A DNA stretch of 64,000 nt from Thalassobaculum sp. OXR-137. Its GTDB lineage: Bacteria > Pseudomonadota > Alphaproteobacteria > Thalassobaculales > Thalassobaculaceae. The notes under the pieces were generated by a model. That model was not told the origin of the DNA and made no database searches. It saw nothing but the letters and a program-made list of their open reading frames with translations. Every line of letters starts with the position of its first letter. Position 1 is the first letter of the stretch. The stretch spans positions 2,402,001 through 2,466,000 of the forward strand of contig NZ_CP139715.1 in assembly GCF_034377285.1 (NCBI RefSeq), written 5' to 3'. Shown here piece by piece: positions 4,203 to 16,811 of the stretch. Both the position numbers and the translations under genes were made by a program.

Positions 4203-6419
4203 TCAGGCCCGGCCCGCGACCTCTCCGCCGCTAGTGCGACCGCTCGCGGGGGTGTAGTCGGGCTGTGGGCCTGCCCTGGCGGGTGCCGCTTTACTCGCGT
4301 TGTCGCCGCCCTGGCCGCCCTGCTGGGCGGGGTCGCTGGACGGGTCGCCCGTGCCGGGCTTGGCCATTGCGTTGATGCCGGTGATGGACTGCTTGAGGGT
4401 TTCGTTGACCGCCTCGCCGATATCCACCCGGTCGTCCAGGGTCTCGACAGCCTTGCGCGCCAGCCACGCGGGCGTAACGCCGGGGACTTGCAGCAGCAGC
4501 GGCGACAGGCGCTCCAGGTTCGCGATGTCCTGGGCCTTGTTCGGCCGGCCGGTGCTGCCCGCCTCGATCTCCAGATACAGCTCCTTGGCGACATCCGCGC
4601 GCGTCAGCGTCGGCCACATGGCCCCGCGCCCCACGATCTCCTTGACCTTCTCCGCCGAGAACTCCAGCAGAAGGATCTGGCTGCTCTTGCGGGCGATCAT
4701 CGACAGCAGCTCGTCCAGGTCGTCCGCGTTGGACTGAAGCGACGACACCCGGCTGCCTTCCGCGATGGACGCTTCGGTGGCCGAGCCGCTGGACAGACTG
4801 CCGAATGTGGCCTCCTGGCTGCCGCTCGCGCGGGTGAAGTCCTGGAAGACAGTCTCCGTCTCGTACAGGTTCGGGTCGATCGCGGTGCGCGGAACCTCGG
4901 AGATCAGGTCCCCTGCCTTGCCGTTGGGCTGTAGGCCGGTCAGGAACAGCACATCGTGGTCCTGGGCGTTGGCCAGAACGCGAACGTCGTCCTCGGGGAT
5001 GGACCCCTGCGCCGCCGCATACAGGGGGCGATTGGCGATCCGGTGCTGCCGGCGGGCCTCCATCGTGCGGTTGTACTCTTTCTGCGGGTGCCGCAGCAGG
5101 CGCGCGTCCGACGGCGGGAACAGAGCGTCTTCTTCCTCGATGTCGTTGAAGGTGAGTGCCTGGAGCGACCAGAACCCCTCGATCGCGACGAACGGCGGGC
5201 GCGGCTCCTCCAGGAAGTCGCTATAGCCGTCGACCATCGTGTAGATCAGGTTATCGGCCCTGCACTCCATGACGTAGACGCAGCACATATCCTCTTTGGG
5301 GCCGGGCTTGCTCGACGCCCAGACGTGCGCGGACTTCATGTGCATGCTGTGATAGCGCGTGAAGTTCTTCTCGCTGAGGTCGACGCCGTAGGTCTCCTTG
5401 ACGGCGTCGACCGTCATGAAGTGCTTCCGCGTCACCCAGCGCGCGCCGACGAACCCCTTCAGGTGCCGGGTCATGCAGTCGGGGATGACGCTCGTGGACT
5501 TCGGGAAGTCCCAGGTCAGACCCTCGCTGACGACCACGTTCTCCGGTTCAGCCTGGAGCTGCTGGAGCATCAGGCGCAGCTCCTCGGCCTCGGCGCTATC
5601 GACCTCCGTCTCCCCGTCGTCCAGCTCGGCCGACAGCCGCTCGATCTTGCGCAAGGTCGCCGTAGCGTCCGCGATCTTTGCCACCACGTCGGGCTGGCGG
5701 GAGGTGATCCGTTGGAAGCCGACGCCGACATAGCCGACGCCCGTGGACTCGACCCGCCGGACAAGCTGCTTGATGCACTCCTTGAAGGTCGGCTCGACCT
5801 GCCCCTGCTGGTTTTCGTAGAGCATCTGGAGCGTCTTGGCGTAGCGGTTCATCTGCTCGCGCGCGTCCATGCCCTGGGCGAAGTCGTCCAGAATGGCCAT
5901 GGCCGTCTCGGGCGGCTCGATCGCCGCGGCCTCGCCAGGAGCACCGCCCTGCGCCAGCGCCTCCACCTGCTGCTCGTACATCATCACCGTCTGCTTGGCG
6001 GCGATGATGCTCTCGGGGCGCTCGTCCCACACCGCGAAGTCCAGCCGGGGGCGACGCTTGGCGATGGCCTTCGGGTCGCGTGCGTAGAGCGCGGAGGTGC
6101 GGTTGAGGATGTGCTGGAGGCAGATGTTCAGGACGTACCGGTTGTCGGCGTCGGTCTGGCCGTTCCACTGCTTGCCGGACACGAAGGCCATGTCCTCCTT
6201 CATGCGCTTGAAGGCGGGGGCGTGGTGCTTTTCATCGTGCCGGATATTGTCCAGCAGGGAGTTGACCAGGCGCTTGCGCTGCTCGGGAATACCGGCGTTG
6301 TCCTCCTCGCGGCGGAGCTTGCGCTTCTCGTCCTCCGGCACCCGCATCGGGTCGGGCTGATCGTCCATGCCGCTCTGCACCAGGTACGGCGACGCCGGCT
6401 CGCGTTGACGCATGCCCAT
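4203..6419 (-). CDS. Portal protein
   Basis: At 738 residues this has the size of podovirus-type portals. The N-terminal third is strongly helical with the charged, tyrosine-rich stretches seen in portal clip and stem regions. The middle contains the wing-like segment, and the C-terminus is a Gly/Pro/Ala-rich tail from about 690. It is the ring at the head vertex through which DNA is packaged and the tail attached. Its ATG overlaps the terminase stop by one base (TAATG), so the two are translationally coupled, as expected of partners in the packaging motor. Confidence 0.85.
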   Translation of the reverse strand: MGMRQREPASPYLVQSGMDDQPDPMRVPEDEKRKLRREEDNAGIPEQRKRLVNSLLDNIRHDEKHHAPAFKRMKEDMAFVSGKQWNGQTDADNRYVLNICLQHILNRTSALYARDPKAIAKRRPRLDFAVWDERPESIIAAKQTVMMYEQQVEALAQGGAPGEAAAIEPPETAMAILDDFAQGMDAREQMNRYAKTLQMLYENQQGQVEPTFKECIKQLVRRVESTGVGYVGVGFQRITSRQPDVVAKIADATATLRKIERLSAELDDGETEVDSAEAEELRLMLQQLQAEPENVVVSEGLTWDFPKSTSVIPDCMTRHLKGFVGARWVTRKHFMTVDAVKETYGVDLSEKNFTRYHSMHMKSAHVWASSKPGPKEDMCCVYVMECRADNLIYTMVDGYSDFLEEPRPPFVAIEGFWSLQALTFNDIEEEDALFPPSDARLLRHPQKEYNRTMEARRQHRIANRPLYAAAQGSIPEDDVRVLANAQDHDVLFLTGLQPNGKAGDLISEVPRTAIDPNLYETETVFQDFTRASGSQEATFGSLSSGSATEASIAEGSRVSSLQSNADDLDELLSMIARKSSQILLLEFSAEKVKEIVGRGAMWPTLTRADVAKELYLEIEAGSTGRPNKAQDIANLERLSPLLLQVPGVTPAWLARKAVETLDDRVDIGEAVNETLKQSITGINAMAKPGTGDPSSDPAQQGGQGGDNASKAAPARAGPQPDYTPASGRTSGGEVAGRA

Positions 6420-14035: not shown

Positions 14036-14082
14036 TTGGGGACAGACAGAGACCAACAACCCCACAGAACGGAGTGCAGACC

Positions 14083-14763
14083 ATGACCACTTATTTCTCC
14101 GCCGAATACGCCTACCACCTCCACAAAGCCGGCTTCGTCTCCACAGAACAGACGCGCTATTACCTCCAAGGCGTTTGCGTCGAGAAAGCGCAAACCCGCC
14201 CCGGCTGCTATCTTGTCGCCACCGACGGTCACCGCATGGGCGTGTTCTATGACGCCACTGCGCACACCGACCAGTCCGGCATTATCGTGTCGCTGAACAA
14301 GACCGGCCTTGCCGCGTGCAAGCCGGGGCGCCATGACATGGACGGCCGCATGGTCGTGGTCGAAGGCTCCACCGTCGCCATTCACGACCGCACCGCCGGC
14401 GACGCGGCCGCTTCGGCGCCGTCCCCTCTGGCAATCAACTGCGGTTCCGTGATCGACGGCACCTTTCCCGACTGGCGCCGGGTTGTCCCCTTCAAGCCAC
14501 AGACCATCCACGCGCACAAGTCCTACAATCCGGCCTATCTGGCAGCGTTCAACTTCAAGCCGTTCAGCGGTGCAACTCCCGCTCTTACCATCGAACAGGG
14601 CGACCACCGCGACCCCGCGGTGGTCCGCAACACCGCGTTCCCGGACTTCCTCGCCGTGCTGATGCCGATGCGCGCAGCCGACCCGGAAAAGACTCCCGAT
14701 ATCCGCCCGGGCTGGCTCAACGACAACCCGCACGCCCTGCCGAAATCCGAGGCTGCCGAGTAA
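14083..14763 (+). CDS. Beta sliding clamp-like protein (shortened DnaN homologue)
   Basis: The 226-residue protein carries several hallmarks of the bacterial DNA polymerase III beta clamp: TRYYLQGVC (24-32; DnaN YYLNG), LVATDGHRM (44-52; DnaN VATDGHRLA), GSVIDGTFPDWRRVVP (121-136; DnaN LVDGRFPDYRRVLP) and an AVLMPMR ending (191-197; DnaN YVVMPMR). It is about 60 percent of the usual length and appears to hold domain II plus a shortened domain III. It could be a phage processivity factor or a decoy for host clamp partners. The ATG at 14083 has GGAG eight bases upstream. Confidence 0.75.
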   Translation: MTTYFSAEYAYHLHKAGFVSTEQTRYYLQGVCVEKAQTRPGCYLVATDGHRMGVFYDATAHTDQSGIIVSLNKTGLAACKPGRHDMDGRMVVVEGSTVAIHDRTAGDAAASAPSPLAINCGSVIDGTFPDWRRVVPFKPQTIHAHKSYNPAYLAAFNFKPFSGATPALTIEQGDHRDPAVVRNTAFPDFLAVLMPMRAADPEKTPDIRPGWLNDNPHALPKSEAAE

Positions 14764-15615: not shown

Positions 15616-15897
15616 ATGGCCGATACCTTCAAGCAAGACGACGATGAAACCTCGGTGATGTTTCGTCGCTGGCGGAATAAGCAACACGAGATTTTTGCAA
15701 TCATCCCCTCCGAGGAATGGGACAGGCGCGGAAGCGTCACCGTCTTCGACGGGTGCCATTGCGGCGGGAATTATCAGGCATGCATCCGTGGGTCTCGCCC
15801 TGCCACTCCGGAGGAATACGCGCCGCTCAAGCGCTCCATGGAGAGCGCGCCCTATGGCTATCGCGTCCGCGTGATCAAGCGGCGGGGAACACGATGA
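15616..15897 (+). CDS. Hypothetical small phage protein
   Basis: 93 residues with an acidic start (MADTFKQDDDETSVMF), an F-AIIPSEEWDRRGSVTVFDG core and a basic C-terminus. The middle has the look of a small beta-rich fold. It is followed by an ATGA-coupled 51-residue gene. No family is recognised. Confidence 0.6.
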   Translation: MADTFKQDDDETSVMFRRWRNKQHEIFAIIPSEEWDRRGSVTVFDGCHCGGNYQACIRGSRPATPEEYAPLKRSMESAPYGYRVRVIKRRGTR

Positions 15898-16049
15898 CCC
15901 GCAAACCCACCATATGGGAAAACCTCGTCGCCAAGCTCGATCGGGACCTGACCAACGAAGAATGCCGCGAAGATATCCACCGCATTCTCGCGGAACACCG
16001 GGTCGAAATGGCCATGCAGGGCAAGCTCCCCCACCAACGCAAGCGATAG
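15894..16049 (+). CDS. 51-residue hypothetical protein preceding the ribozyme
   Basis: Begins MTRKPTIWENLVAKLD and ends KLPHQRKR. It is a helical, charged peptide with the ATG inside the upstream stop (ATGA). Its stop codon (TAG, 16047-16049) falls within the outer strand of the hammerhead ribozyme, so translation to the end of this gene could unfold or delay ribozyme folding. Confidence 0.55.
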   Translation: MTRKPTIWENLVAKLDRDLTNEECREDIHRILAEHRVEMAMQGKLPHQRKR

Positions 16050-16100
16050 CCGAAACGCGCCAAGGCGCGTCCGCCGGTAGCTCCGGCGCTGATGAGGCAA
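16047..16100 (+). ncRNA. Type II hammerhead ribozyme
   Basis: All conserved positions are present in permuted type II order. GCC (16049-16051, stem II 5' strand), GAA (16052-16054), A15.1 (16055), stem III CGCGCC/GGCGCG (16056-16069), U16.1 (16070) and C17 (16071) come first. Stem I CGCCGG/CCGGCG (16072-16077/16083-16088), CTGATGA (16089-16095) and GGC (16096-16098, stem II 3' strand) follow. A15.1 pairs with U16.1 and G10.1 with C11.1. Cleavage is predicted between 16071 and 16072, in the gap between two small genes. Stem II is short (3 bp), so activity in vivo must be tested. Confidence 0.8.
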
Positions 16101-16133
16101 CACCCGCTCGCTACGGGGGAGGATGAGACGATG
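16055..16133 (+). repeat. 79-bp perfect direct repeat, copy 1
   Basis: Identical to 16384-16462. It contains the two hairpins of the ribozyme, CTGATGAG, a strong ribosome-binding site (GGGGGAGG, 16115-16122) and the ATG of the next gene. The 5' boundary is the ribozyme base A15.1. The copies are 329 bases apart. Confidence 0.95.
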
Positions 16134-16367
16134 AATGAATATTTAATTGGCTGGACATACTGTGACGGCCCGTCCGGGTTTCTGACCAGCGCGACGCTGA
16201 CCGTTGCGGAGGCGGATCGACTGGGCGCCTTTCTTGCGAAGCAAGTAGACGACTGTCCGACGGTGATTTTTGACGCCTTCGTTTCCGAACGGTCCGCCCC
16301 GCACCGCGACCTTGACAGCGTCATGGGTGAGATTTTCGAAGCGCTTGGACTAGAGGCCACGTCATGA
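16131..16367 (+). CDS. Small acidic hypothetical protein (cassette gene A)
   Basis: 78 residues starting MNEYLIGWTYCDGPSGF; an in-frame upstream ATG (16092, inside the ribozyme CTGATGA) would add 13 residues. The start at 16131 follows GGGGGAGG with eight-base spacing. The protein has a beta-hairpin-like start and two helices and ends in LEATS. The following ORF starts in its stop codon. Confidence 0.6.
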   Translation: MNEYLIGWTYCDGPSGFLTSATLTVAEADRLGAFLAKQVDDCPTVIFDAFVSERSAPHRDLDSVMGEIFEALGLEATS

Positions 16368-16383
16368 CCCAGTCCGACCACCG

Positions 16384-16462
16384 ACGCGCCAAGGCGCGTC
16401 CGCCGGTAGCTCCGGCGCTGATGAGGCAACACCCGCTCGCTACGGGGGAGGATGAGACGATG
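16384..16462 (+). repeat. 79-bp perfect direct repeat, copy 2 (truncated ribozyme)
   Basis: Repeats 16055-16133 exactly, including stems I and III, CTGATGA, the ribosome-binding site and the ATG. The bases just upstream are CACCG where copy 1 has GCCGAA, so the essential G12-A13-A14 and the stem II partner strand are missing. This copy should not cleave. Confidence 0.95.
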
Positions 16463-16648
16463 GATAGGCCGAGCATGACCCCATACAACGCCCTGACCGC
16501 GATAAGAGCACGCATTCGCGGCGAATGGGACAATCCGAAACTTGTGTTTTTCGGGCCGCTCTCGCCAGACGTAGGAGATGACATCCTGGAAATCATCAGG
16601 TGCGTCAGCCCAAGCATCGAGTCTGAGGACGAGGACGCCACGTCATGA
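16460..16648 (+). CDS. Small hypothetical protein (cassette gene B)
   Basis: 62 residues (MDRPSMTPYNALTAIRARIR and on) ending EDEDATS, like gene A's LEATS. An in-frame ATG at 16364, overlapping gene A's stop, would give a 94-residue form that reads through the repeat. The ribosome-binding site in the repeat favours 16460. The product is not similar to gene A apart from the end, so the repeat acts as a leader and not as part of a duplicated protein. Confidence 0.55.
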   Translation: MDRPSMTPYNALTAIRARIRGEWDNPKLVFFGPLSPDVGDDILEIIRCVSPSIESEDEDATS

Positions 16649-16785
16649 CTCAGTCCGACCACCGCCGCGCCGCGACCGGCCGCACTCCACCCCGGCGCAT
16701 CCGCGCCATTCTCCGACGCGCTGGCTTCGACGCGAGGGAGGCCGCCAAAGAGGCGACCCGCCTTTCGCTTGCCCGCATTGTCTGA
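16645..16785 (+). CDS. 46-residue basic protein (cassette gene C)
   Basis: It starts in gene B's stop (ATGA) with MTQSDHRRAATGRTPPRRIR. The first eight residues equal those of the long form of gene B, showing that the junction sequence was also duplicated. It is Arg-rich with a helical REAAKEATRLSLARIV end and could bind nucleic acid. It lacks the 79-bp repeat. Confidence 0.5.
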   Translation: MTQSDHRRAATGRTPPRRIRAILRRAGFDAREAAKEATRLSLARIV

Positions 16786-16811
16786 AACCACGACAGATTG
16801 AGGATCGACAG

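Follow-up and report, generated by a model that had tools for sequence, protein, structure and literature searches.

A type II hammerhead ribozyme beside an upstream stop codon in a prophage, with a core-deleted copy 329 bp downstream

A type II hammerhead ribozyme was confirmed, by its sequence and by covariance-model search, at 16048-16106 of the window (the whole 64-kb stretch of DNA analysed), and self-cleavage of its RNA is predicted. By itself this ribozyme adds one member to a known family; what deserves notice is a rule of placement, according to which the stop codon of the upstream gene lies directly before the ribozyme, and a natural twin that is predicted to be dead. The explanation that we favour as probable is that the type II hammerhead acts as gene-independent punctuation of a long phage transcript, which it would cut and whose new ends it would protect. 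The features of the locus are as follows.

15894-16049, plus strand: upstream gene, 51 aa, of unknown function, with TAG stop at 16047-16049
16047-16049, plus strand: stop codon TAG of the upstream gene, one base in common with stem II
16048-16106, plus strand: type II hammerhead ribozyme (RF02276) with intact core, from 42.5 bits against 37 and from the fold
16049-16051, plus strand: stem II 5′ strand GCC, pairing with 16096-16098 (fold and sequence)
16052-16055, plus strand: core GAAA (G12, A13, A14 and A15.1; sequence)
16055-16136, plus strand: copy 1 of an 82-nt repeat, from A15.1 through the start codon of gene A
16056-16069, plus strand: stem III hairpin, 3′ end of the upstream product after the predicted cut (fold and sequence)
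16070-16071, plus strand: U16.1 (16070) and C17 (16071), with predicted cleavage after 16071 (sequence and family rule)
16072-16088, plus strand: stem I hairpin of 6 bp with the 5-nt loop UAGCU, 5′-OH end of the downstream product after the predicted cut
16089-16095, plus strand: core CUGAUGA (sequence)
16096-16098, plus strand: stem II 3′ strand GGC (sequence)
16115-16122, plus strand: likely ribosome binding site GGGGGAGG, 8 nt before the ATG at 16131 (by eye)
16131-16367, plus strand: gene A, 78 aa, no family match
16353-16390, plus strand: copy 1 of a 38-nt repeat, end of gene A and a start reading MTQSDHRR
16384-16465, plus strand: copy 2 of the 82-nt repeat, 99% identical, a hammerhead without two core A and minus one stem II pair, predicted inactive
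16460-16648, plus strand: gene B, 62 aa, no detectable similarity to gene A
16634-16671, plus strand: copy 2 of the 38-nt repeat (92%), end of gene B and start of gene C
16645-16785, plus strand: gene C, 46 aa (MTQSDHRR...), its first codons repeated at 16364

The Rfam scan of the 64-kb window placed RF02276, the type II hammerhead, at 16048-16106; its score of 42.5 bits (E 2.5e-5) exceeds the gathering cut-off of 37. This was the sole Rfam match above cut-off in the window, and the covariance-model search that an earlier note on this DNA had proposed came out above the cut-off. The window ribozyme was the single RF02276 match in the 5.65-Mb genome; no match was obtained in any other of the 36 genomes searched from the same order, and across the phylum 19 of the 398 genomes scanned, that of the window among them, contained the family by Rfam. 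Read letter by letter, the invariant core (CUGAUGA, GAAA, U16.1 and H17) was complete, in agreement with the earlier note, which had placed all conserved positions in the permuted type II order and the predicted cleavage site between 16071 and 16072. Folding of 16044-16140 (97 nt) gave as minimum-energy structure the type II three-way junction, in which loops close stems I and III and stem II is left open. The energy of this fold was ordinary for its composition (z -0.12 against shuffles), so the case for the ribozyme rests on its core and its homology. A UAGC/GCUA match between loop I and the distant 16110-16113 could be due to chance.

The window lies in a bacterial genome and carries a prophage, in which the ribozyme sits within a plus-strand series of small genes. 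Ten of its proteins were scanned, and matches were obtained to, among others, terminase large subunit, RusA-like resolvase, primase/helicase, Cas4-domain exonuclease, Sak4-like annealing protein and integrase. The protein encoded at 14074-14763 gave a weak Pfam match to beta-clamp (below cut-off) and RusA-like resolvase as its best PHROG, and one of these labels may be wrong. The 51-aa upstream gene had relatives in eight viral loci, in which Rfam detected no hammerhead even at E up to 0.5, and only the window's own copy was found in 385 genomes of the class; it gave no PHROG match and one Pfam match below cut-off (E 0.08). No relative of gene A or gene B was confirmed in viral contigs, and no DNA relative of 15900-16800 was detected among 50,697 phage records. 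The two genes were also considered as duplicates of each other, and this was rejected on DNA and protein scores under the shuffle means. With the 38-nt repeat at the ends of genes A and B, each of the two genes is framed by repeats.

For the collection of relatives, one pattern was used in which stem I was fixed and which demanded no GAAA, stem II or stem III, save two stem III bases. It matched 98 viral and 33 genome stretches, and 117 of the 133 distinct matches also carried GAAA, stem III and stem II; in these 117, which passed the pairing test, stems II and III were kept by compensatory change, and the 16 matches that failed the fold test were left out of the pair tables. When a structural detector was run over 152 sequences, it picked out 184 type II hammerheads, distributed over 117 of them; reversed or complemented sequence gave none. 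Two further patterns, with stem II fixed and stems I and III free except for one stem III pair, gave at least 290 distinct matches, at least 262 of them with both stems I and III, and 28 failed the stem test. In the set of at least 290, 4.83 of 5 pairs formed in stem I (2.38 when partners were shuffled) and 4.83 in stem III (2.90 when shuffled), counted in the best register per match, a choice made first that favours pairing somewhat. A lack of compensatory changes in homologues had been named in the earlier note as the observation that would speak against a ribozyme; the stems were instead found to pair far above the shuffles across these matches.

Counting that of the window, viral contigs and genomes together supplied at least 472 type II hammerheads that were distinct from one another. 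This merged set was reduced from 501 to 472 among the matches listed by dropping near-duplicates (shared 12-mers) and matches with less than 200 nt upstream. Most members of RF02276 have a tertiary contact in which loop I pairs with the tail of stem II. This pseudoknot was clear in 132 relatives with a long loop I, with a mean of 5.24 pairs against 3.96, and was not seen in 37 relatives with a short one, with 2.86 against 2.80 when shuffled; the loop I of the window ribozyme is short and places it by loop length in the class of those 37, from whose count it was left out. Five viral contigs (L083, L283, L179, L094 and L036) carried 9, 8, 7, 6 and 5 type II hammerheads, respectively, in series between small genes within a few kb. 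In L023, L027, L051, L128 and others the core is separated from stem II by an additional U (CUGAUGAUGGC); several of these hammerheads lie in host records from gut Clostridia.

The position of the upstream gene was then scored as a stop codon ending 1-12 nt before the core GAAA and closing an open reading frame of at least 35 codons. Such a stop was present in 139 of 169 hammerheads of the first relative set, and the window's own, at -3, occupies one of the commonest positions (34/139). The second search gave 208/251 among the matches listed against 163/2510 random points, and the merged non-redundant set 383/472 among the matches listed against 148/2360 random points on the same strand. By source, and again among the matches listed, the rule held in 129/159, 238/293 and 15/19, plus the window, and 89 of the 472 listed hammerheads break it. 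Conversely, the core lay within a longer open reading frame (at least 60 codons upstream) in 25/472 of the matches listed against 1165/2360 random points. Relative to the stem II helix, the last base of the stop codon was most often at -1 (54/139) or 0 (28/139). The earlier note had put the upstream stop codon in stem II, and this was borne out in that the TAG adjoins and overlaps the stem, the overlap being one base only. The base 5′ of stem II was A in 119 of 133 ribozymes with a stop and in 25 of 29 without, which indicates that part of the stop-like sequence is structural; the A adjoining stem II is probably a structural element that is often supplied by the stop codon. The median distance from stop to next start was 81 nt (133 cases), so the ribozyme occupies most of the intergenic space. 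Tight packing of phage genes could alone put the stop beside the ribozyme, packing and selection being inseparable in these data. No statement of the stop-codon rule was found in the literature searched, which was available in part and included few subscription papers.

The second hammerhead copy was located by Rfam at 16379-16435, 329 bp downstream, with 26.4 bits against the cut-off of 37, and its 99% identity to copy 1 extends over 82 nt. Loss of two core A (A13 and A14, if the A that is left is taken as A15.1) has shortened its GAAA to GA, and stem II is down to two of its three pairs; stem III, U16.1-C17, stem I, CUGAUGA, the tail, the ribosome site and the start codon are retained. Judged by the missing core bases, copy 2 should be dead and is predicted not to cut. 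It begins inside the ribozyme and precedes gene B, which is unrelated to gene A, and it breaks the stop-codon rule: there is no stop at -12 to -1, the nearest one, that of gene A (16367), ends 16 nt before the copy, and the frame opened at 16364 (MTQSDHRR) runs through the ribozyme into gene B. A putatively live and a core-deleted copy standing close together in one prophage, with leaders 99% alike over 82 nt, constitute a natural negative control. Near 6086 on the minus strand of L122, stem I, CUGAUGA and the tail were seen with no GAAA upstream, possibly another 5′-truncated copy. That one of the two window copies is already broken, and that no relative of the exact leader turned up in a search of the family's other 35 genomes, would suit a neutral leftover with no effect, and yet copy 1 has lost no core base and conforms to the stop-codon rule; we regard such a relic as very improbable.

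The same placement of the stop codon bears on translation. The rule found among the relatives (383/472 of the matches listed) keeps a competition between translation and cleavage plausible as judged from sequence, and the interpretation of the earlier note is upheld in part, namely for the type II hammerhead and for the stop beside stem II. The part that did not hold concerns the in-frame ATG of CUGAUGA as a second start: it was in frame with, and open to, the downstream start in 42/162 loci and in 69/235 of the second set (among the matches listed), at or below the one third expected for frame by chance, and a conserved second start at this ATG was rejected as no commoner than chance. A switch at the ribosome site was likewise rejected, the predicted accessibility before and after cleavage differing by a median of 0.004 in 140 loci, of which 13 opened by more than 0.15 and 4 closed.

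A regulator gated by ribosomes was weighed against these results. In such a regulator, cleavage would read out translation of the upstream gene: ribosomes at the abutting stop would block folding of the core, and when translation falls the RNA would be cut and the downstream message freed or lost, so that the ratio of products is the function. The stop within 12 nt of GAAA in the 383 of 472 matches listed, its preference for the very edge of stem II (-1 and 0), and the window's dead copy 2, which breaks the rule and is read through from 16364, are what such gating would lead one to expect. Against it, no downstream gene is conserved, the predicted accessibility of the ribosome site hardly shifts on cleavage and the core ATG is not enriched. 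We consider a regulator of this kind rather unlikely.

The independence from particular genes was seen in the downstream proteins. The downstream start followed CUGAUGA at a median of 26-27 nt in the first set, with a ribosome site in 150/162, and at a median of 29 nt in the second, with a ribosome site in 214/235 (among the matches listed). The 162 downstream genes fell into 141 families, 125 of them with a single member. The protein scan took 134 of the 137 downstream proteins listed, and any one PHROG or Pfam family accounted for three of the 134 at most (among the best 25 of 86 and the best 25 of 27 families); single matches were to an anti-restriction protein, a primase, a transposase, a single-strand binding protein and a RusA-like resolvase. 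None of 114 pairs of ribozymes on the same contig had related downstream genes, pairs without a recognised downstream gene being counted as unrelated.

Ribozymes of one contig were nevertheless alike. A likeness of 85% or more was reached by 25 same-contig pairs (12 contigs), compared with 23 among 1500 pairs sampled across contigs. In 23 near-identical same-contig pairs (15 contigs), identity was 0.97-0.98 inside the ribozyme; upstream it was 0.37 at -15 to -5 and 0.23 further up, and downstream 0.80 in the 10 nt that follow CUGAUGA, 0.47 at +10 to +25 and 0.26 in the next gene. Identity drops at the edges of the ribozyme, which indicates that it was copied without its neighbours. The window copy is unlike these 23 pairs in that it is cut at the 5′ side and extends to the start codon. 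Among eight same-contig 3′-half copies that the detector had missed, the window copy was alone in being without GAAA.

Copies with sharp edges and unrelated genes behind near-identical copies could also be read at the level of DNA, the ribozyme being a short homology by which an annealing recombinase swaps small genes, or a selfish insert, and cleavage being incidental. The Sak4-like annealing protein in the same prophage and the cassette-like repeats flanking genes A and B fit this reading too. Selection for DNA homology would not, however, hold the fold by compensatory changes as the sequence drifts, and among the eight unlisted 3′-half copies GAAA was missing only in that of the window; a DNA-level linker is in our estimate improbable, more so than the gated regulator.

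Punctuation of a long transcript, the explanation favoured here, would proceed as follows. After the end of the 51-aa gene the RNA would fold and cut itself between C17 (16071) and 16072. The upstream message would then end with its stop codon, GAAA, the stem III hairpin and a 2′,3′-cyclic phosphate, and the downstream message would start with a 5′-OH, the stem I hairpin, the ribosome site and ATG. The type II order puts the cut between two closed hairpins, and both products would thereby receive structured ends, which may slow end-dependent decay and uncouple the genes. By what is generally known of bacterial RNA decay, such ends would be expected to slow it, and end protection at this locus is reasoned from anatomy. 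With its stop codon against stem II, the module could trail a gene directly without intruding on it. By its known footprint a terminating ribosome should cover stem II and GAAA, and cleavage would for that reason be delayed until the stop codon is freed. A module of this kind could serve any gene and be copied within phage genomes apart from its neighbours. The sequence data themselves establish the core and its structure, the covariation of the stems, the place of the stop codon, the independence from particular genes and the copying; ribozyme activity, end protection and ribosome gating are what we infer for this locus from these features.

As a more specific and only tentative proposal, less likely than punctuation as such, phage type II hammerheads may be punctuation coupled to translation: the ribozyme would be set on the upstream stop, the terminating ribosome would license or delay the cut, the type II order would be favoured as the sole one of the three circular permutations with hairpins on both new ends, and the module would spread from gene to gene. 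If this is true, the stop codon and the ribozyme form an overlapping unit that amounts to a general rule of phage operons, undescribed in the literature searched, as far as its sources were available. The placement rule, obtained in three separate searches (the 383/472 of the matches listed), turns the role of prokaryotic hammerheads into simple tests.

No type I hammerhead was found by the structural detector in the viral and genome loci scanned, and the type I Rfam family gave one match below cut-off in 369 genomes; the type III family gave none in 369 genomes, control genomes being likewise silent, so that this zero does not establish absence. If hairpins protect the new ends, type III ribozymes would need a separate one upstream; the sample for this comparison was too small to carry weight. 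By eye, five of six strict type III matches, three of them sharing one sequence, had such a hairpin, and a scripted test gave 2 of 10 lax type III matches against 155 of 1000 random points, three of the ten being type II ribozymes. In L038, L045, L090 and L106 the hairpin seen by eye was GC-rich and lay just upstream of the type III ribozyme, as if substituting for the stem III hairpin that would be missing from the upstream product. A possible divergent type III hammerhead with a CUGACGA core (viral locus L008:3300-3364; 22.6 bits against a cut-off of 48.5) stands a short distance behind the relative of a 93-aa gene of the window and is no more than a lead.

Where single genes are flanked by two ribozymes, as in the arrays, the RNA could also meet another fate, in which the genes between two ribozymes are released and ligated by RtcB, through the 5′-OH and the 2′,3′-cyclic phosphate, into circular messages. 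Against this, RtcB (PF01139) was not matched in the host genome (0/1, with 9 of 14 control genomes positive), the second window ribozyme is broken, and circular or spliced products could not be detected by Perreault et al. according to the part of their report available (PMC3088659); circular messages seem to us highly improbable at this locus.

Punctuation by structured elements has a counterpart in mitochondria, where tRNAs lying between genes cut polycistronic RNA into shorter messages. The likeness is in the structured intergenic elements, and the difference is that there RNase P and RNase Z do the cutting and not the element itself. The closest known system is that of Perreault et al. (2011), who reported type II hammerheads in prophages, with copies flanking small genes of varying identity, published in vitro cleavage for three tandem arrangements and proposed processing of long phage RNA (PMC3088659, in the part available). 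The window ribozyme shares with RF02276 and with that report the core, the permuted order, the prophage setting and multiple copies by small genes; it differs in that the placement of the stop codon was measured here, a term that the main text of the report does not contain, and in the core-deleted duplicate. Although phages commonly carry hammerheads, the role of the prokaryotic ones was called an open question in a 2017 review (PMC6155905, in part). Hammerhead permutations near Mu-like phage genes (PMC10085705, main text) are similar in that the ribozymes cluster with one another and near phage genes, for a reason called unknown; those permutations are non-circular, and the term stop codon is absent from that main text. 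Theta ribozymes of gut phages (PMC10879173, in the part available) are likewise small self-cleaving phage RNAs proposed as processing devices beside another gene feature, and differ in having an HDV-like fold and in being proposed to trim the 3′ ends of tRNAs rather than messages.
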